Below, one piece after another: positions 11,718-35,780 of a stretch of DNA of 44,474 bases (the first letter of the stretch is position 1; each line of letters opens with the position of its first letter). Source of the stretch: Acidobacteriota bacterium (GTDB lineage: Bacteria > Acidobacteriota > Terriglobia > Terriglobales > Acidobacteriaceae); NCBI GenBank assembly GCA_021800255.1, contig JAJYZC010000003.1:1-44474 (forward strand). Reading direction: 5' to 3'. Under the pieces are notes generated by a model. That model was given only the letters and a program-made list of their open reading frames with translations. It ran no database searches and was not told where the DNA came from. The position numbers were made by a program, and so were the translations under genes.

Positions 11718-13058
11718 TCAGTCCACCAGACGCCCGAAGTCGATCTCACGGGCGGTAAGAATGGGGGACTCGCCGGCCAAGATGACAGCCCGCTCTAAAA
11801 CATGCTCGAGTTCGCGGACATTGCCCGGCCAGGCATGCGCCGCCAGCTTGGTCATGGCTCCACTATCTACACGCTTGACCGGGGCATCGCGGCCCATCTT
11901 CTCGAGAAAGTGCTCCACCAGCAGAGACAGATCCTGGATGTGCTCGGCCAGCGGCGGCGTGCGAATGAGAAAGACCGCCAGCCGGTAGTACAAGTCGGGG
12001 CGAAAGCCGCCGGTCTGGGCCTGCTCGGCCAGCGGCCGGTGGGTGGCGGCCAGGATGCGAACATCCACCCTCACGGTCTCGTTGTCGCCCACCCGCTGCA
12101 ACTCACCGCACTCGGCGAAACGGAGCAACTTCGATTGCAGGCCCAGCGGCATCTCTCCGATCTCGTCCAAAAACAGCGTGCCTCCGTCGGCGGCCTCGAT
12201 GCGGCCGGTACGGCCCTGCACAGCGCCGGTAAAGGCGCCGCGGGTGTGCCCGAACAGTTCGGCTTCGAGCAGGGCTTCAGGTATAGCAGCGCAATTGATG
12301 GCCACAAAGGGCTTGCGGCTTCTTGCCGACAGCCGGTGCACGGCCTCAGCGACCAGCTCCTTGCCGGAGCCGGTCGGCCCCTCAATGAGCACCGGCGTCA
12401 GGCGCGGCGCCACCAAACGGACGCGGCGGCTGATCTCCAACATGCAGGCGGCATTGCCAATCATCTCGGGCAGCCGTTCGGTCTCCGCTTGTTGGCTGGC
12501 GCGGCCCGGCAACTCGATGCGCATAGGGATGGTCTTGGCGGGCGCCTGCGGCATCGGTACCACGGCGGGCAGCTTATCCTGCAGCGCAGATGACGGTGCG
12601 ACTGCGGCGGCAGGCGGCAGGCCGGCGGCGGTGCGTCCGGGCGCCGTCTCGAAACCGTTGAACTCGGGCGCTAGGTTCCACGCCGCCGTATCGGTATCCT
12701 GCGAACGGCGCAAGGCATAAAGAAGCTCCTGACGGTAGGGGCCGCGCGGACCCTCTTGTGTGAGCGAACCGGCCGTGGTCACCAGGTCCACCAGCGGAAA
12801 CCGGTCCCGGAAATCGTGGAGGAACTCGGCAAGATCGAGATCGGGGAGCCAGGAATCGACGATGACGGCCTCCGGGATCGCGTCTTCGGCCTCGGCCCAG
12901 GCTTGCGCGCCGCTTCCGGCTTCGCGTACCTGCCAGCGCAGGCCGTTGAGAATTTGGGTGAGCCGCTGGCAAAAGCTGCGGTCGGCGCTGGCGACCAAAG
13001 CGGTGCGCGGACGCACGCGCAGGGCAGGCGGAAGAACGGGAACCGGAAAAGGCTGCAT
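11718..13058 (-). CDS. FlgR-like sigma-54 activator without DNA-binding domain
   Basis: A 446-residue NtrC-family activator. The N-terminal receiver-like domain (residues 15-125) keeps an aspartate in VIVDSWLPD (Asp68) but has only one residue of the usual acidic pair (VASADRS) and lacks the conserved Lys-Pro, so its phosphorylation is doubtful. The AAA+ domain is intact: Walker A GPTGSGKE (227-234), the sigma-54-contacting GAFTGA loop (274-279), Walker B GGTLFLDEIGE, and WPGNVRELEHVLERAVILAG. The protein stops 16 residues after that motif, so the Fis-type helix-turn-helix is missing, as in Helicobacter FlgR. It heads the flgB operon, and three sigma-54-like promoters in the window make it their likely activator (inference). 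Confidence 0.92.
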   Translation of the reverse strand: MQPFPVPVLPPALRVRPRTALVASADRSFCQRLTQILNGLRWQVREAGSGAQAWAEAEDAIPEAVIVDSWLPDLDLAEFLHDFRDRFPLVDLVTTAGSLTQEGPRGPYRQELLYALRRSQDTDTAAWNLAPEFNGFETAPGRTAAGLPPAAAVAPSSALQDKLPAVVPMPQAPAKTIPMRIELPGRASQQAETERLPEMIGNAACMLEISRRVRLVAPRLTPVLIEGPTGSGKELVAEAVHRLSARSRKPFVAINCAAIPEALLEAELFGHTRGAFTGAVQGRTGRIEAADGGTLFLDEIGEMPLGLQSKLLRFAECGELQRVGDNETVRVDVRILAATHRPLAEQAQTGGFRPDLYYRLAVFLIRTPPLAEHIQDLSLLVEHFLEKMGRDAPVKRVDSGAMTKLAAHAWPGNVRELEHVLERAVILAGESPILTAREIDFGRLVD

Positions 13059-13092: not shown

Positions 13093-13122
13093 TAACTTGA
13101 ATCGAGTCTTAACTTGCATCGA
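13093..13122 (-). promoter_or_regulatory. 13-bp direct repeat upstream of the FlgR-like gene
   Basis: TCGATGCAAGTTA and TCGATTCAAGTTA (minus strand) occur 17 bases apart with one mismatch. They span the end of the OmpR-type gene and the 50-base gap before the activator. The form suggests an operator, but the protein that might bind is unknown and chance cannot be excluded. Confidence 0.4.
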
Positions 13123-13894
13123 GGGCCGGAGCTGCGGGCGCAGCCGTGGCCTGGCCCGCGATTCGGCCCGTGGCCGGGGTCGCACCCGCAAGCATGGGAA
13201 GGGCGGCTAGCGGCGGGGTCATTTCCACCTCAGAAGGCACCATGTAACCCCGGCCGCGCACGGTCCGGATCAACTGCCCCGGCGGCGGATCCTTCAGCTT
13301 GCGGCGAAGGTAGTTGACATAGACGTCCACAATGTTCGTGGTCTGCGCCGGCTCCAGGTTCCAGACCGAGTCCAGCAGCTCCACGCGCGAGACGCACTGT
13401 CCGCGGTTGAGCAGCAGGTGCTCGAGCAGAGCAAATTCCTTATTGGTGAGGACTACAGTCTGGCCGCCGCGCCGGGCCGTGTGGTCCAGCCGGTCCATCT
13501 CCAGATCTCCGGCGCGAAGCTGCAGCCGCGCCTCCCGCTTGCGCCGCAGCAGGGCCCGGCAACGAGCCCGCAGCTCGTGCAGGCTGAAAGGCTTGACCAT
13601 AAGATCGTCGGCGCCCCGGTCCAGGCAGCGCACGCGCGTGTCCACCTCCTGCCGGGCGGTGAGCACCAGCACGGGAAGATCGGCATCGAGAGTACGCAGC
13701 TCTTCGAGCACCTGCTCGCCGTCTTTGACCGGCATGTTCAGGTCGAGAATGGTCAGATCGGGCATCTCCTGGCGAAACGCCTCCACGGCCGCCCCGCCGT
13801 CGTAGGCCAGACGGACGCGATGCCCGTCGGCTTCCAGCCCCCGGCTGAGAAACAATCCCAGCGCCTTGTCGTCCTCGGCAATGAGTAGCCTCAT
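13109..13894 (-). CDS. OmpR/PhoB-family response regulator
   Basis: A 261-residue two-domain regulator. The receiver has all key residues: acidic pair in IAEDD, phosphoacceptor Asp51 (LTILDLNMP), Thr in VLVLTA and Lys101 (VKPF). The winged-helix domain (about residues 125-225) has TNKEFALLEHLLLNRGQ, TNIVDVYVNYLRRKL and IRTVRGRGYM, so it should bind DNA. A roughly 35-residue Ala/Pro tail follows. No histidine kinase is in the window, so the partner is unknown. The ATG at 13894 has AAGGA upstream. It sits 50 bases before the FlgR-like gene in the same direction and may control the flagellar cascade (inference). Confidence 0.93.
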   Translation of the reverse strand: MRLLIAEDDKALGLFLSRGLEADGHRVRLAYDGGAAVEAFRQEMPDLTILDLNMPVKDGEQVLEELRTLDADLPVLVLTARQEVDTRVRCLDRGADDLMVKPFSLHELRARCRALLRRKREARLQLRAGDLEMDRLDHTARRGGQTVVLTNKEFALLEHLLLNRGQCVSRVELLDSVWNLEPAQTTNIVDVYVNYLRRKLKDPPPGQLIRTVRGRGYMVPSEVEMTPPLAALPMLAGATPATGRIAGQATAAPAAPALDAS

Positions 13895-13939
13895 GACAGT
13901 TCCTTTTCGCGCAACGCCGGCGCGCGCCTGCCCGCTAGA

Positions 13940-13964
13940 CCGCGCGGCCCGTTGTTTAAGCCGC
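13940..13964 (-). promoter_or_regulatory. Hairpin in the response-regulator leader
   Basis: A perfect seven-base stem, GCGCGGC with GCCGCGC, encloses an 11-base loop about 45 bases before the regulator's start. The function is not evident. The remaining 13895-14152 gap shows no gene. Confidence 0.35.
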
Positions 13965-14152
13965 GCTAAGCAAGGTTCTCCTTCACCTTCAGGCTAGACA
14001 AAACGAAACTCAAGATTGGAGAGAAAAAAGACAGGGAGGCGATTCCAGGATTGGCACAGGACGAGCACCCAATCCCAAAACGGCGCGGATCGCCTCGCCT
14101 TGGAGGAGGTCCGGCATACGCGCAGGCTAAAGTCTTTCAGCTTCCGTCCGAT

Positions 14153-15295
14153 TCAATTGGACCGGCCGCGAGACGCCGGCTGCCCGAATGCGCTGGGGCG
14201 GGAGCGGGAGGCTGCTTTGCGCTCGTACATAGCGGCATCGGCCCGGGCGAGAAGCTCTTTCATGGCCTCATCCGGCAGGCGTTCCGCCAGCCCGATGGAT
14301 GCGTCGATCTTCAGCTTAAGCGGGCCGGACTTTCCCTGAACGGTGTAATCTCCGCACACCCACTTGCGCAGGCGGTCGATCTGCGCGCCCGCCTCGGCCT
14401 GCGAGCAGTCCAGCACAATAATGAATTCATCACCGCCCCAGCGGCCGATCACGTCCGACTGGCGGCACACCGAACGCAGCTCCGTTGCGAACTGCTTGAG
14501 CAGTTCATCGCCCGTGAGGTGGCCGTGATCATCATTCACCTTTTTGAACCCGTCGATGTCCACAATCGCCACGCAAAAGACAGATCCAGACGCGATCCGG
14601 CTCTCGATCATGTTTTCCACGCACAGGCGGCTGCGCAGCCCGGTCAGCGCATCGTGGAAGGCCAGCGCTTCAGCCTCTTCGAGCTTGGTTTGATAAGTTG
14701 TAAGCCGTTCCTGAAGCTGGTCGAAGGCTGTTTTGCCTTCCGCAGTCATGCGATCAATGGATGTCTTCAGTTCTGCGGCGCTGGTTTCAATCGCGGCGCG
14801 AACTTCGGTCAGGTCTTCCAGGGTAGCGATTTCTTTGAGCCGCGCCGTGACCTCGTTGATCTGTTGGGCGCAGCGCTGATCTCGTGCGCCCACCGATTCC
14901 GCCGTGCGCGCCATCACGAGCAGCAGATCCTTTACCTCGCCCGCCTTTTGCTGATAATGCCGGGCCGTGTTTCTTCCCCAACCGCGGAGGTTCTCCTGTA
15001 TCCCCGTATTGGTGGCCTCCAACTCCGCGCGGCTCATGGCGGCGGAGAGGTTGGCCTTCAATTTTCCAAGACTGTCCTTGAGCTCATTGCCCAAGGCGGG
15101 GCATGCGTCCCGGCTGCAATTTCCCACCTCCAGCAACGTCGAGCCATATGCGGCCATCGCCAGGGCCAGCATGCCCGTCTCGTCTGTCTCAGCCGCCTCT
15201 CCACTGCCGGGAGAAGCCGAGTCCAGATACTTTTTCAGCGAGATGATTTTGCCTTGCAGCAAAGGCTCCCCCTCAGCGATTGGACCGCTCACCAA
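14153..15295 (-). CDS. Soluble diguanylate cyclase (GGDEF) with coiled-coil N-terminus
   Basis: A 380-residue protein with no membrane segment. Residues 1-65 are unassigned. Residues 70-215 are long heptad-rich helices, probably a coiled coil. Residues 210-370 form a GGDEF domain that makes c-di-GMP from GTP: DALTGLRSR, IVDIDGFKKVND, the catalytic GGDEF at 287-291 and an RxxD inhibitory site (RQSD, 278-281), so product inhibition is expected. The start is a TTG (15295) or the adjacent GTG (15292) just after AGGGG; both lie only a few bases from the start point of a sigma-28-like promoter, so a later start is possible. It is divergent from the second cyclase. Confidence 0.9.
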   Translation of the reverse strand: MVSGPIAEGEPLLQGKIISLKKYLDSASPGSGEAAETDETGMLALAMAAYGSTLLEVGNCSRDACPALGNELKDSLGKLKANLSAAMSRAELEATNTGIQENLRGWGRNTARHYQQKAGEVKDLLLVMARTAESVGARDQRCAQQINEVTARLKEIATLEDLTEVRAAIETSAAELKTSIDRMTAEGKTAFDQLQERLTTYQTKLEEAEALAFHDALTGLRSRLCVENMIESRIASGSVFCVAIVDIDGFKKVNDDHGHLTGDELLKQFATELRSVCRQSDVIGRWGGDEFIIVLDCSQAEAGAQIDRLRKWVCGDYTVQGKSGPLKLKIDASIGLAERLPDEAMKELLARADAAMYERKAASRSRPSAFGQPASRGRSN

Positions 15296-15306
15296 CCCCT
15301 ATTCTT

Positions 15307-15334
15307 CTATCGGCAGCAAATTGTCTATTCATCA
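15307..15334 (-). promoter_or_regulatory. Sigma-28-like promoter for the soluble cyclase
   Basis: The minus strand has GCCGATAG (seven of eight bases of GCCGATAA) with ATGAAT 12 bases upstream in the -35 position. The -35 half is weak. The same ATGAAT/GCCGATAG pair is seen before cheY. Confidence 0.5.
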
Positions 15335-15734
15335 GGCCGAACAACATCCTTGAAAATCGCCGGAAGTGTATGCCTATACCTCAAATGGGTTATTGTCAGA
15401 ATCGAAAGTTCCATTACCCTTGATGGATGAACCACACCTGAGGTAAGAGTGTATTGGGTGCACTTCGTCGACATGGCCCTCTCGAACGAGCGTGGCCGGC
15501 CGCCAAGCTGAAAATGGCTGGATTGCCGCTCCGAATGGCCTGATTCGATCCAACTACGTCTCTGACAACATGAATCCGTTTCATCCAATTCGTGCCCTCC
15601 CAAGTCCTAAAATGGGACCTGGAGCACCCTCAAGTGGTACAAAACTAAGCTGTCAGAGGCCTGCGTGATTCTTTCACAGGCTTGCTTCCGGCATTCGATG
15701 CCGGTGAGATTGGAAAATGCTGCAAAAGCGTTAT

Positions 15735-15760
15735 AGAAGTTTGGGCAAAACAGCCGATTT
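15735..15760 (+). promoter_or_regulatory. Sigma-28-like promoter for the membrane cyclase
   Basis: AGAAGTTT (six of eight bases of TAAAGTTT), a 10-base spacer and GCCGATTT (six of eight of GCCGATAA). The spacer is one base short of the enterobacterial norm. The predicted start point leaves a leader of about 35 bases with a strong AGGAGG site. Confidence 0.5.
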
Positions 15761-15802
15761 TATTACTTATTGTCGCGCAGAGCAGTGGATAGGAGGGCCG
15801 GG

Positions 15803-17134
15803 GTGGACTGGGGCAAACTGCCGGATCTGGGTGCGGTCGCGCTCTTAACCTGCGCCTTCGCTTCCGTGGCGAGGAGCAACCAAACGCGGGCATCGGGACT
15901 TTGGCTCACCGGATGGGTGATGGTCGATCTGCACTTCGCGGCCATGGTCTTTATACCGGCTCCAGGGGTTCTCGGCGATATTGCGCAGTTCGTTGGACTG
16001 ACGGCGCTGATCTGGGCGGGAGTTCTGTTCTTGTGGGCTGCGGTTCCTTTCCGCGAGGATCCTTCCAGCCGCTGGATGGTCAGTATCCTATTGGGCCTCA
16101 CGGCGCTTTACATCGGCTTGATTATGGTCAGTCCGGCCGCATCCTGGTCATTGATTCCCGCGGCGGCACTGATCGGAATATTGCCTCTGACGCTTACGCT
16201 GCTGACGTTGCGTACACTCAACCACCCGCTGCGCTGGGCTACGGTGGCCCTCTTTGGCGCTCTCTCCATCTTTTTGCTGATCGTCCAGCGCCGCCCGAGC
16301 AACGGCACGGAACTGGCTTTGAACGCGGTTCTATTTACGGTCTATTTCGACTGCTGCATCCATTGTTGGTATGCGTACCGGCGCGCCAGCGCAGGCGCGT
16401 TTGTCACCATCGCCGGATTTCTGGCCTGGGCCAGCGTATTCATCGTAGGGCCTACGCTCTACGCCTCATGGCCGAATCTCCACATCGACCCCGAAATATG
16501 GAACCTGCCCAAATATGTGGTGGCGGTGGGCATGATTCTGCTCGTTCTTGAAGACCAGATTGAACACAACAAGTTCCTGGCACTGCACGACGAGCTCACC
16601 GGACTTCCCAATCGCCGCCTCTTCCAGGACCGGCTGGCAAGCGCCCTGGAGCGCGCCCGCCGCAGTGGGACACAGGCGGCCCTCTTGCTCGTCGACTTGA
16701 ACCAGTTCAAACAGGTCAACGACACCTTCGGCCACCACGTGGGCGACCTGCTTCTGAAAACCGTGGGAACGCTGTTCGTGGAAAGAGTGCGCCGCTCCGA
16801 TACCGTGGCGCGAACCGGCGGTGACGAATTTTCCATCGTTTTGGAAGAACCCACCAGCAGGGCAGACGCCGAGCGTGTGGGCCGATCGCTGATTCAGCTT
16901 CTGCGTGAACCCCTCGAGTTGGACGGTCAAGCAGTGCCTGCATCCGCCAGTGTGGGAGTAGCTGTCTTTCCCGAGGATGCGCTCACCATGGAATCGCTGT
17001 GCATTGCTGCTGACTTGAGGATGTACGACGAAAAACACGCCGCCGCTCACCGCCACCGGCGCTTACGTCCCTCCCTGACCACTTACCCAACCGCAGCCGA
17101 CGCACCAAGCGGTCTCCATACCGAGCGAGCTTGA
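15803..17134 (+). CDS. Membrane-anchored diguanylate cyclase (GGDEF)
   Basis: A 443-residue protein. The first 250 residues contain about seven or eight hydrophobic segments (for example LTGWVMVDLHFAAMVFI and ALIGILPLTLTLLTLRTL) and form an integral-membrane sensor of unknown ligand. The GGDEF domain follows: HDELTGLPNRRLFQDRL, LLVDLNQFKQVNDTFGHHVG, catalytic GGDEF at about 339-343, and an intact RxxD inhibitory site (RRSD) five residues before it. The GTG at 15803 was chosen because AGGAGG lies six bases upstream; a TTG 11 codons earlier lacks a ribosome site. The gene is followed by a strong hairpin and has no EAL partner nearby. Confidence 0.92.
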   Translation: MDWGKLPDLGAVALLTCAFASVARSNQTRASGLWLTGWVMVDLHFAAMVFIPAPGVLGDIAQFVGLTALIWAGVLFLWAAVPFREDPSSRWMVSILLGLTALYIGLIMVSPAASWSLIPAAALIGILPLTLTLLTLRTLNHPLRWATVALFGALSIFLLIVQRRPSNGTELALNAVLFTVYFDCCIHCWYAYRRASAGAFVTIAGFLAWASVFIVGPTLYASWPNLHIDPEIWNLPKYVVAVGMILLVLEDQIEHNKFLALHDELTGLPNRRLFQDRLASALERARRSGTQAALLLVDLNQFKQVNDTFGHHVGDLLLKTVGTLFVERVRRSDTVARTGGDEFSIVLEEPTSRADAERVGRSLIQLLREPLELDGQAVPASASVGVAVFPEDALTMESLCIAADLRMYDEKHAAAHRHRRLRPSLTTYPTAADAPSGLHTERA

Positions 17135-17348: not shown

Positions 17349-19775
17349 TTATCTCTGGCCGTTACCGCCTGGTCCCCGGCTGCCTGGACGCCGCCGGCGC
17401 CGGCGCCGGTTATTCATGTTCTGAGGCCGCCCACTGCCTGCCGGCTGACCGGCATGAGCCGGCGCTCCATCGGCGCGATTGAAGTTCGGTTCGTTGTTTT
17501 CATCCACCTCCTCATCCTCGCCGTCGAAATCGTCTCCGCCTTCGATGAGGATGGTGCTTTGGTTGGATGCGGGCTGCCGATCATCGAACTCATGCCGCTG
17601 GGGAGGTGGAGCCGCGAAAGTTTCATCCGCGGAGCTATCAGCCGCCCTGGTTTCAGCCGGGGCCGATTGCGCCAGCTTGGCCTTCTGCTCCCGGATGAGC
17701 GCCTTGCGGCTCAGCTTGATGCGATTGCCCTCGATAGCCAGCACCTTGACCATGATCTGATCGCCTTCGCTCAGCTCGTCCTTGACCTCTTTCACACGGT
17801 GCTCGGAGATTTCAGAGATGTGCAGCAGGCCGTCGGTACCGGGGAAAAGCTCGACAAAGGCGCCGAACTCCGCGATGCGCACCACCTTGCCCAGGTAGGT
17901 TTTGCCTACCTCTGGAACCGCGGTGAGGTCGCTGATGATGGCCAGAGCCTTCTTCAGACCCTCGGCGTCGCTGGAGGCGACGCTAACTTTGCCGGTGTCG
18001 TTTACATCGATTTTGGCGCCGGTCTGCTCCACGATGCCGCGAATGGTTGCGCCGCCCTTGCCGATCAGGTCGCGAATCTTATCCACCGGAATCTGCACGG
18101 TCTCGATGCGGGGCGCATACTGCGAACGTTCCTGGCGCGGGCCGCTGAGCGCGGCATCCATCTTATCCAGAAGGAAGAGCCGCCCGCGGCGGGCCTGCTC
18201 CATGGCCTGCTCAAGAATCTCGCGGGTGAGGCCGCCGATCTTGATGTCCATCTGCAGCGCAGTGATGCCCTGGCGCGTACCCGCAACCTTGAAGTCCATG
18301 TCGCCGTAGTGGTCTTCCGCGCCGGCAATGTCGGTGAGAATGGCGTATTCTTCGCCCTCTTTCACCAGCCCCATGGCTACGCCGGCCACTGAGCCTTTGA
18401 GCGCGATGCCCGCGTCATAGAGCGCCAGGCTTGCACCGCAGACGGAGGCCATAGACGAGGAGCCGTTGGACTCCAGAATGTCGGAGACCACGCGAATGGA
18501 ATAGGGAGATTCATCCGCGTCGGGCAGGACGGCGCTAATCGCTCGCTCAGCCAGGGCGCCGTGGCCCACTTCACGCCGGCCCACGCCGGTCATGCGTCCC
18601 GTCTCGCCAACGCTGAAGGGCGGAAAGTTGTAGTGGAGCATGAAGTTCTTCCGTTGCTCCCCCTCGTAGGACTCTAACCGCTGGCTTTCGTCGGCGGTGC
18701 CCAGCGTGGCCGTCACCAGGGCCTGGGTTTCGCCGCGGGTGAACAGAGCCGAGCCGTGCGTCCGCGGCAGCACGCTGGTCTCGATGGTGATGGGACGAAT
18801 CTCATCGAAGGCGCGCCGGTCGGGCCGGATGCGGTCCTTGGTTACCTGCTCGCGGAACAGCCGTTCGCGCAGAAGCTCGTAGTAGTGTCCCAGCTTCTTT
18901 TTGGCTGCCGGGTCGTCGGCAGGAAGCCCTGCTGACAGCTCATCCTGAATCTGCTTGATCAGCGCGTAGCTCTCCGTTTTGCCGTGGGTCTTGGTATCCA
19001 GAGCGTCCTTAAGCCGCTCGCCGATCTTCGCCTTGAGCTCGTTGTAGTAGGCCTCGTCAAACTCCGGCGGCGTGAAGGGACGCTTCGGCTTACCGGCCTT
19101 CGCAACCAGTTCTTCGATGGCGGTTACGATCTTCTTGATCTGCTCGTGACCGAACTCGATGGCGGCCAGCACCACCTCTTCGCTCTCTTGTTTGGCACCC
19201 GACTCGATCATGACGATGCCGTCCTTGTGGCCGACGATCATGATGTTGAGCGTGCTCACGGCCCGCTGGGCATAGGTGGGGTTGACGACGAACTCACCGC
19301 CCACGCGGCCTACCCGCACTGCGCCCACGGTGGCGCTGAAGGGAATATCAGAGAGCGCCACGGCCGCGGCGGCCGCGTTGATAGCCATCACGTCGGGATC
19401 GTTTTCTTTGTCGGCCGAGAAGACCAGCGCGATCAGTTGAGTCTCATTGCGGAATCCGTCAGGAAACAGCGGGCGGAGGGGCCGGTCGATCTGGCGGGCG
19501 GTGAGGATCTCCTTTTCGCTGGGCCGGCCTTCACGCTTGATGAAGCCGCCGGGAATGCGGCCTCCGGCGTAGGTGTACTCGCGGTAATCCACCGTGAGCG
19601 GGAAGAAGTCGATGCCTTCGCGGACATCGGTGGAAGCTACAGCAGTTGCTAGAACGACGGTCTCGCCCGTGGTGACCAAGGCGGCGCCAGAGGCTTGCTT
19701 GGCCATGCGGCCAGTTTCAAAAACCACCCGCTTGCCGCCGGCAAGCTCGACGGCTACTTCATGCTTCATAGACAT
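17349..19775 (-). CDS. pnp: Polyribonucleotide nucleotidyltransferase (PNPase)
   Basis: An 808-residue phosphorolytic 3'-5' exoribonuclease of the RNA degradosome. It has the two RNase PH domains (first about residues 15-145, with DYREYTYAGGRIPGGF; second about 320-470, with LVTATLGTADE, GEQRKNFMLHYNFPPF and GRREVGHGALAERA), a KH domain (KIRDLIGKGGATIRGI) and an S1 domain (GKTYLGKVVRIAEFGAFVEL, HISEISEHRV). About 100 extra C-terminal residues are first acidic (DDFDGEDEEVDENNE) and then end in an Arg-rich tail. The ATG at 19775 has GAGGA upstream. It follows rpsO, a widely conserved order. Confidence 0.98.
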   Translation of the reverse strand: MSMKHEVAVELAGGKRVVFETGRMAKQASGAALVTTGETVVLATAVASTDVREGIDFFPLTVDYREYTYAGGRIPGGFIKREGRPSEKEILTARQIDRPLRPLFPDGFRNETQLIALVFSADKENDPDVMAINAAAAAVALSDIPFSATVGAVRVGRVGGEFVVNPTYAQRAVSTLNIMIVGHKDGIVMIESGAKQESEEVVLAAIEFGHEQIKKIVTAIEELVAKAGKPKRPFTPPEFDEAYYNELKAKIGERLKDALDTKTHGKTESYALIKQIQDELSAGLPADDPAAKKKLGHYYELLRERLFREQVTKDRIRPDRRAFDEIRPITIETSVLPRTHGSALFTRGETQALVTATLGTADESQRLESYEGEQRKNFMLHYNFPPFSVGETGRMTGVGRREVGHGALAERAISAVLPDADESPYSIRVVSDILESNGSSSMASVCGASLALYDAGIALKGSVAGVAMGLVKEGEEYAILTDIAGAEDHYGDMDFKVAGTRQGITALQMDIKIGGLTREILEQAMEQARRGRLFLLDKMDAALSGPRQERSQYAPRIETVQIPVDKIRDLIGKGGATIRGIVEQTGAKIDVNDTGKVSVASSDAEGLKKALAIISDLTAVPEVGKTYLGKVVRIAEFGAFVELFPGTDGLLHISEISEHRVKEVKDELSEGDQIMVKVLAIEGNRIKLSRKALIREQKAKLAQSAPAETRAADSSADETFAAPPPQRHEFDDRQPASNQSTILIEGGDDFDGEDEEVDENNEPNFNRADGAPAHAGQPAGSGRPQNMNNRRRRRRRPGSRGPGGNGQR

Positions 19776-25332: not shown

Positions 25333-25629
25333 CTACTGCCCGCCACTCAGCATGGCATCGACGAGCTTTGAGGCCACCGCCGATGCCGGCACATTGTAGG
25401 TTCCGGCCGCCAGCGCCGCCTGCACGGCGGCAACCTTGCCGGTACGAATCCCCTCGCCTAAAGCAGCCTGCGAGATCTCACTGGCCGCGCTGCTCAGCGT
25501 CGCCAGGTCGCTGCTGAGGCCGCTCTCCGCGTTCGCAGCAACCGGGTTTTTAGCCTGGGCTGTGGGCGGCGCAGCCGCATTCACCCCTAGCAACGACCTC
25601 AGACCATCCATGCTGCTGCGAATATCCAT
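25333..25629 (-). CDS. flgM: Anti-sigma-28 factor FlgM
   Basis: A 98-residue, largely disordered protein that holds FliA inactive until it is exported through the finished hook. The C-terminal segment IRTGKVAAVQAALAAGTYNV followed by PASAVASKLVDAML is the FlgM signature (R-x-x-K-V-A-x-hydrophobic-x-x-A-x-x-x-G-x-Y). The N-terminal part is Ala/Ser/Pro-rich. GGAG lies just before the ATG at 25629, downstream of a good sigma-28-like promoter, which would give the classic feedback circuit. Confidence 0.9.
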   Translation of the reverse strand: MDIRSSMDGLRSLLGVNAAAPPTAQAKNPVAANAESGLSSDLATLSSAASEISQAALGEGIRTGKVAAVQAALAAGTYNVPASAVASKLVDAMLSGGQ

Positions 25630-25650: not shown

Positions 25651-25677
25651 TCATCGGCCCATCTGCTAATCACTCTA
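25651..25677 (-). promoter_or_regulatory. Sigma-28-like promoter for flgM-flgN-flgK-flgL
   Basis: TAGAGTGA, exactly 11 bases, then GCCGATGA on the minus strand: five of eight and seven of eight bases of the TAAAGTTT-N11-GCCGATAA consensus. It fills the short gap between the flgJ stop and flgM. Confidence 0.7.
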
Positions 25678-34916: not shown

Positions 34917-35780
34917 TCATCCCGCCTTGCGCCGCGGCCGCTCCGCAACCGCGCTGAGGGGCCGGTCGAAGGCCCCGCGCGCGGCCAGATCCTTGAGCGC
35001 GACGCGCAGATGGGAGACAGCCGAGGCATGCACCTGCGAAACCCGCGATTCGACCACCCCCAGCGCCAGGCCGATCTCGCGCATGGTCATCTCCTCGTAG
35101 TAGTAGAGGGTCATCACCAGCCGCTCCCGGTCGGGCAGCTTGGCGATGGCCTCAGCCAGCCGCTCCTCGAGCTCGCCGCGCAGACAGCGGAAGAGCGGAT
35201 CTTCCTCCGGCCGGCCAGGTACATAGGCCAGCTCCTCTTCACCGGAATCCTGGTTGCGTTCAAGGTGCAGCGTGCCGATCTCAAGGCCCTTCAAATCGCC
35301 CAGAAGCTGCTGGTACTCTTCGAGATCCAAGCCCATCTCCGCGGCCACTTCGCCCTCGCCGGGCGCCCGGCCCAACTGCGCCGTCAGCGCACGGATAGCC
35401 TCCTCGACCGCGCGGCCCTTGCGCCTGAGTTCGCGCGGGCTCCAGTCGAGGGTTCTCAGGCTGTCCAGAATGGCGCCGCGAATGCGGAACTGGGCATAGC
35501 TGCGGAACTGCACCTTCTTGGCCGGATCGAACTTGGCGAAGGCGTCCATAAGCCCCACGATGCCGGCGGAGACCAGATCCTCAATGTCCACATGCTGGGG
35601 CAGACGCTCGTGAATGCGCCGGGCGAGAAAACGCACAATAGGCAAGTGCTCAAGCAGGATGCGCTCCTGCTCGCCCGTGAGCACCTGCGGCGCCGGCGCC
35701 GGCGGCGGATAGCTGCTCGGCCCGCTGCCCCGGCGCAACACCCTCTGCTCCCTGGCTGCGGCCGCCCCCTCGGTTCCCAT
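34917..35780 (-). CDS. fliA: Flagellar sigma factor FliA (sigma-28)
   Basis: A 287-residue sigma factor that directs RNA polymerase to late flagellar and chemotaxis genes. Region 2 has LPQHVDIEDLVSAGIVGLMD and VQFRSYAQFRIRGAILDSLR, region 3 WSPRELRRKGRAVEEAI, and region 4 LPDRERLVMTLYYYEEMTMR followed by IGLALGVVESRVSQVHASAV. The first 30 residues and last 20 are variable and Pro/Arg-rich. The ATG at 35780 has AAGGGG upstream. Its inhibitor FlgM is encoded at 25333-25629, and at least four sigma-28-like sites lie in the window. Confidence 0.97.
   Translation of the reverse strand: MGTEGAAAAREQRVLRRGSGPSSYPPPAPAPQVLTGEQERILLEHLPIVRFLARRIHERLPQHVDIEDLVSAGIVGLMDAFAKFDPAKKVQFRSYAQFRIRGAILDSLRTLDWSPRELRRKGRAVEEAIRALTAQLGRAPGEGEVAAEMGLDLEEYQQLLGDLKGLEIGTLHLERNQDSGEEELAYVPGRPEEDPLFRCLRGELEERLAEAIAKLPDRERLVMTLYYYEEMTMREIGLALGVVESRVSQVHASAVSHLRVALKDLAARGAFDRPLSAVAERPRRKAG

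Follow-up and report, generated by a model that had tools for sequence, protein, structure and literature searches.

The flagellar gene cluster and its two predicted diguanylate cyclases

The window, by which we mean the whole stretch of DNA that was analysed (44,474 nucleotides of contig JAJYZC010000003.1 from an Acidobacteriota bacterium), is a flagellar gene cluster, with hook, rod, ring and switch genes and the export-gate genes flhA, flhB and fliR. The cluster further encodes a sigma-54 activator, FliA and FlgM, and two divergent GGDEF genes, here called DGC1 and DGC2, lie inside it. The genes of concern are as follows:

11718..13058, minus strand: sigma-54 activator, of flagellar type by context
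13109..13894, minus strand: OmpR-type response regulator, downstream of DGC1
14153..15262, minus strand: DGC1, predicted soluble diguanylate cyclase with helical N-domain, stalk helix and GGDEF domain (reading frame open to 15295)
15803..17134, plus strand: DGC2, predicted membrane diguanylate cyclase with eight predicted transmembrane helices followed by GGDEF (start GTG 15803)
25333..25629, minus strand: FlgM, anti-sigma-28 factor (PF04316, 43.5 bits; cut-off 25)
34917..35780, minus strand: FliA, sigma-28 (TIGR02479, 244.8 bits; cut-off 189.6)

The GGDEF domain (PF00990, cut-off 23.8 bits) scores 116.6 bits in DGC1 and 150.2 bits in DGC2. The I-site and A-site read RQSD-VIGRW-GGDEF in DGC1 (RxxD-x5-GGDEF) and RRSD-TVART-GGDEF in DGC2. 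A GG[DE]EF A-site is present in 25 of the 27 aligned DGC1 sequences, and 23/27 have both motifs together, with RxxD five residues before GGDEF; both motifs are found in all 29 aligned DGC2 sequences. On the strength of these canonical active sites and I-sites, both proteins are predicted to synthesize c-di-GMP. The predicted structure of DGC1 (mean pLDDT 81.8) comprises a helical N-domain, a long stalk helix and the GGDEF domain, and in that of DGC2 (mean pLDDT 86.9) the GGDEF domain follows eight hydrophobic helices; domain searches of DGC1 detected nothing other than GGDEF, and no receiver domain. A preliminary description of this DNA had proposed two divergent diguanylate cyclase genes inside a flagellar cluster, both with intact GGDEF and RxxD sites, one soluble with a coiled coil and the other a polytopic membrane protein, and this part of it is borne out by the domain and structure predictions.

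The loci with relatives of DGC1 belong to metagenome assemblies of Acidobacteriota, which are labelled Terracidiphilus, Acidobacteriaceae, Candidatus Sulfotelmatobacter and Terriglobia. Comparison with orthologues places the DGC1 start near 15262 (TTG) or 15247, and TTG 15262 is probably the translation start. Nearly all DGC1 orthologues begin with ATG (ATG-ATC-TC) at the position corresponding to 15247-15249 (minus strand), which is ATC in this genome; the upstream TTG at 15262 could replace it as the start. The TTG at 15295 that had been quoted earlier was rejected: it lies only about 5 nt past the predicted transcription start, and the orthologues point elsewhere. A DGC2 start at 15770 was likewise set aside, the orthologues placing it at GTG 15803.

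The gene order DGC1, OmpR-type regulator, sigma-54 activator, flgB is kept in many relatives. No terminator was recognised after DGC1, so that read-through into the regulator and activator genes is possible; scans for sigma-70 promoters and terminators gave nothing above chance and an Rfam search gave no match. The stretch between DGC1 and the regulator gene (13895-14152) is similar in several relatives (e.g., L015, L018, L016 and L027). In the sigma-54 activator a receiver domain is matched weakly, and the protein stops shortly past the AAA+ lid; Pfam detected no C-terminal DNA-binding domain in it, and inspection by eye showed no FleQ-type c-di-GMP motif. On the other side, a gene for polynucleotide phosphorylase (PNPase; 17349-19775, minus strand) adjoins DGC2 inside the flagellar cluster, a position kept in several relatives. 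Elsewhere in this genome, a flagellin gene has a weak GGDEF match (G000:C97:3262-3699) at a distance of about 2 kb.

A conserved, predicted sigma-28 promoter upstream of DGC1

The following promoter features, predicted from the sequence, concern DGC1 and flgM:

15308..15335, minus strand: predicted sigma-28 promoter of DGC1, with -35 CTGATG (15335-15330) and -10 GCCGATAG from 15314
15308-15314, minus strand: GCCGAT box upstream of DGC1
25653..25677, minus strand: sigma-28-like promoter of flgM, TAGA-N15-GCCGAT, the positive control within the window

The predicted transcription start of DGC1 lies near 15300. The preliminary description had noted a GCCGAT-type -10 box before each of the two genes; both boxes are present, but their presence proves little, since the motif occurs at chance frequency. 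In the whole genome GCCGATA has 500 occurrences, fewer than the 600 of a reversed-pattern control, and in the window 3 were observed against 4 expected. With a position weight matrix trained on 17 flagellin promoters and that of flgM, and thus independent of DGC1, the DGC1 site of this genome scores 6.6, where shuffles have a median of 4.9 and a 95th percentile of 9.5; its -35 is off consensus. With the box at chance level in this genome, only comparison with relatives can separate signal from chance. We searched the 160 nt that precede the start codon in 27 DGC1 and 29 DGC2 orthologues, with shuffled sequences as controls.

GCCGAT was found upstream of 26/27 DGC1 orthologues (shuffle mean 2.0) and GCCGATA upstream of 22/27 (shuffle mean 0.3). 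The orthologues share ancestry, so that these are not counts of independent events; the chief safeguard here is that the spacer is not conserved. The combination CTRA-N16/17-GCCGAT is present in 13 of the 27, compared with 0.02 in shuffles, and a CTNAAG-like -35 stands at one spacing upstream of GCCGAT. When 35 DGC1 promoters were tabulated by position, only two blocks proved conserved, from -21 to -15 and at GCCGATA; the alignment was made on GCCGAT, so those six columns are conserved by construction, whereas the -35 block and the following A are not. Two conserved blocks with little conservation between them are the pattern expected for a promoter. The flagellin/flgM matrix also scores the DGC1 regions above shuffles (p=3.6e-12), with nearly all best hits on the GCCGATA box, and many orthologues (L006, L015, L017, L023, L149-L152) have a near-consensus CTAAA[AG] together with GCCGATA. 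The usual DGC1 spacer is one nucleotide longer than that of flagellin promoters.

The promoter reaches beyond this first set of orthologues: it recurs at nine of 12 further loci, the most distant of them at about 40% protein identity. The box before DGC1 is absent in L032 of the first set and in L147 and L154 of the further loci, and in L142 it occurs only farther upstream; for L149-L151 and L155 the start codon is not firmly matched, and the distance from box to start is uncertain. The promoter is also kept at loci with no flagellar homologue detected within 6 kb (L140, L145, L146, L149-L151 and L155); at L155 the sigma-54 activator is weakly matched (29%) about 5 kb away. Membership of the sigma-28 regulon was judged by a conserved -35/-10 pair at sigma-28 spacing; such a pair precedes DGC1, weak as it is in this genome alone, and the comparison supports the prediction that DGC1 carries a conserved sigma-28 promoter.

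A different promoter architecture upstream of DGC2

The region upstream of DGC2 has the following predicted elements:

15720..15734, plus strand: DGC2 upstream box CTGCAAAAGCGTTAT (family consensus CTACAAAAGCGCTAT), a possible activator site
15753..15763, plus strand: -10-like element GCCGATTTTAT (family form CGATTCTAT), 30 nt past the upstream box; the second “sigma-28” box of the preliminary description
15753-15758, plus strand: GCCGAT box within this region

Among the 29 DGC2 orthologues, none has GCCGATA before the gene, and none has a TRAA or CTRA -35 at sigma-28 spacing (strict patterns). What is conserved is another arrangement: in 15/29 (shuffle mean 0.5) the CTACAAAAGCGCTAT box is followed, at a distance of 30-31 nt, by a CGATTCTAT-like element, and many orthologues have in addition a TTAC element about 37 nt before the box. 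A strict form of this pattern has matches in 3/48 genomes, two of the three at DGC2 itself, and within the window no further DGC2 box reaches the scores of the training set, apart from one weak match inside the PNPase gene. The promoter looks activator-dependent from its conserved elements; a -35/-10 pair at sigma-28 spacing is not conserved, and a sigma-28 promoter of DGC2 is not supported at the level of the family.

This leaves the case of the species itself, where both cyclases might be sigma-28 dependent if the GCCGATTT of DGC2, together with TAGA, formed a lineage-specific promoter overlapping that of the family. TAGA-N15-GCCGATTT lies upstream of DGC2 in this species and has a single counterpart in the window, at flgM, with 0.15 expected, although the TAGA-N15-GCCGAT pattern was picked after the site had been seen; the site scores 9.1 with the flagellin-trained model, just below the shuffle 95th percentile of 9.6. 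Given that orthologues lack both the sigma-28 -35 and GCCGATA, and that the CGAT element of DGC2 belongs to a promoter conserved in another form, in which the distance to the upstream box is fixed, we consider a lineage-specific sigma-28 promoter of DGC2 unlikely.

Distribution of the cyclases and of flagellar genes

Whether the two cyclases belong with the flagellum at all can also be asked of gene presence; they could be general c-di-GMP enzymes that stand beside flagellar genes by chance. Within the genus, in assemblies that are incomplete, DGC1 is present in 27/37 genomes with FlhA and in 4/10 without (p=0.07), and for DGC2 the association with FlhA has p=0.43; the former is a trend, neither is significant, and flagellins occur even in several genomes in which FlhA is missing. 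Each of the two genes lies outside the flagellar cluster in several relatives, and DGC2 is kept in a genome (G013) with no family match to flagellin or FlhA. Against a chance neighbourhood, DGC1 keeps its predicted sigma-28 promoter also at locations outside the cluster, and we regard the absence of any functional flagellar tie as improbable for the pair, while it may well hold for DGC2.

The relative G013 (locus L126), with no flagellin match and only a fragment of FlhA, keeps FliA, FlgM, DGC2, the OmpR-type regulator and the sigma-54 activator, and is without DGC1. G004 and G032 have FliA-type factors above the family cut-off, and neither flagellin nor FlhA was matched in them. Six genomes of the same genus (G008, G014, G031, G036, G039 and G042) match FlhA at least twice and encode a further FliA, which suggests a second flagellar system.

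Proposed regulation of DGC1 and DGC2

We propose, with a probability of about 0.72, that DGC1 is a late, sigma-28-class flagellar gene timed by FlgM export and that DGC2 has its own activator-type promoter, not primarily dependent on sigma-28. On completion of the hook, FlgM would be exported and FliA freed; FliA would then use the CTNAAG-N14/15-GCCGATA promoter that is conserved before DGC1, and the enzyme would be made in cells that had just built a flagellum. Such timing is reasonable because the cluster encodes both FliA and FlgM, the latter with a sigma-28 box of its own. The helical N-domain and stalk of DGC1 presumably gate dimerisation of the GGDEF domains in response to a signal, and the intact I-site would subject the enzyme to product inhibition. 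DGC2 would be driven separately, from the upstream box 30 nt before the CGATTCTAT element.

That the GCCGATA before DGC1 has nothing to do with sigma-28, and is conserved instead as a binding site or as an element of the leader, is highly doubtful: a -35 that the flagellin model rates poorly at many DGC1 sites, this genome's included, and the longer spacer speak for it, but the two blocks stand at promoter spacing, many orthologues are near consensus in both, and the flagellin-trained model picks the same site.

Of the sigma-28-like promoters put forward in the preliminary description, with conservation in relatives as the check, that of DGC1 is upheld by its box, its positioned -35, the flagellin-trained model and the further loci; that of DGC2 fails the same comparison, its family having another architecture. 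The suggestion that c-di-GMP synthesis is switched on with the late flagellar genes therefore stands in part, for DGC1 with its conserved promoter and not for DGC2: judged by these promoters, no more than one enzyme of the pair can be assigned to the late flagellar class. A role of DGC1 in surface attachment is plausible from general c-di-GMP biology.

More broadly, and only tentatively, the flagellar checkpoint of Terriglobia may raise c-di-GMP, the FliA freed at hook completion making DGC1 and new flagellated cells being thereby primed to settle. The sigma-28 circuit may also serve c-di-GMP or other ends beyond motility, as FliA and FlgM are kept in a relative with only a fragment of FlhA and no detectable flagellin.

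Comparison with known systems

Structure searches with the whole DGC1 and DGC2 models gave matches to the cyclase part of each. DGC1 resembles Caulobacter DgcB (6ttr; Z 21.6, 184 residues, rmsd 2.1) and Pseudomonas SiaD (7e6g; Z 22.6, 201 residues, rmsd 5.0) in having a stalk helix and a GGDEF domain, and these two matches are confined to those parts. An assignment of DGC1 as SiaD was rejected, the NCBIfam SiaD model giving 129.7 bits, far below its cut-off of 290. PleD (2v0n), the canonical I-site-regulated cyclase, shares the GGDEF fold and I-site (Z 23.3, 188 residues, rmsd 4.5) but has receiver domains, of which none was detected in DGC1.

In the bacteria studied, FlgM export at hook completion frees FliA (PMC13432727), and genes of c-di-GMP signaling are known in its regulon. 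A few literature searches found no relevant paper on flagellar gene control and c-di-GMP in Acidobacteria, and a limited open-access search found no GGDEF-only cyclase of the FliA class that is conserved throughout a bacterial class. Legionella pneumophila has a FliA-dependent GGDEF/EAL protein, lpp0952 (PMC5655016), which like DGC1 places a GGDEF protein in the FliA regulon; it has EAL and PAS/PAC in addition, whereas in DGC1 only GGDEF was detected. PdeH (YhjH) and YcgR of E. coli are FliA-dependent c-di-GMP genes (PMC8669469, PMC4866697) and so, as proposed for DGC1, belong to the sigma-28 class timed after hook completion; PdeH, however, degrades c-di-GMP, where DGC1 is predicted to make it. 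In P. aeruginosa, a fliA mutant has raised c-di-GMP (PMC4866697). The phosphodiesterase BifA of Pseudomonas putida is partly controlled by FliA and favours swimming, and its authors suggest phosphodiesterase control as a conserved role of FliA (PMC5300878); DGC1 would share with BifA a FliA promoter on an enzyme of c-di-GMP turnover, and would break that proposed role.

The FliA targets described among c-di-GMP enzymes are mostly phosphodiesterases (PdeH, BifA), a wiring that fits the view that building a flagellum lowers c-di-GMP. If our reading of DGC1 is correct, some bacteria would couple flagellum completion to a rise in c-di-GMP through a conserved sigma-28 promoter before a cyclase gene, the reverse of the wiring from FliA to phosphodiesterases in E. 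coli and Pseudomonas putida.
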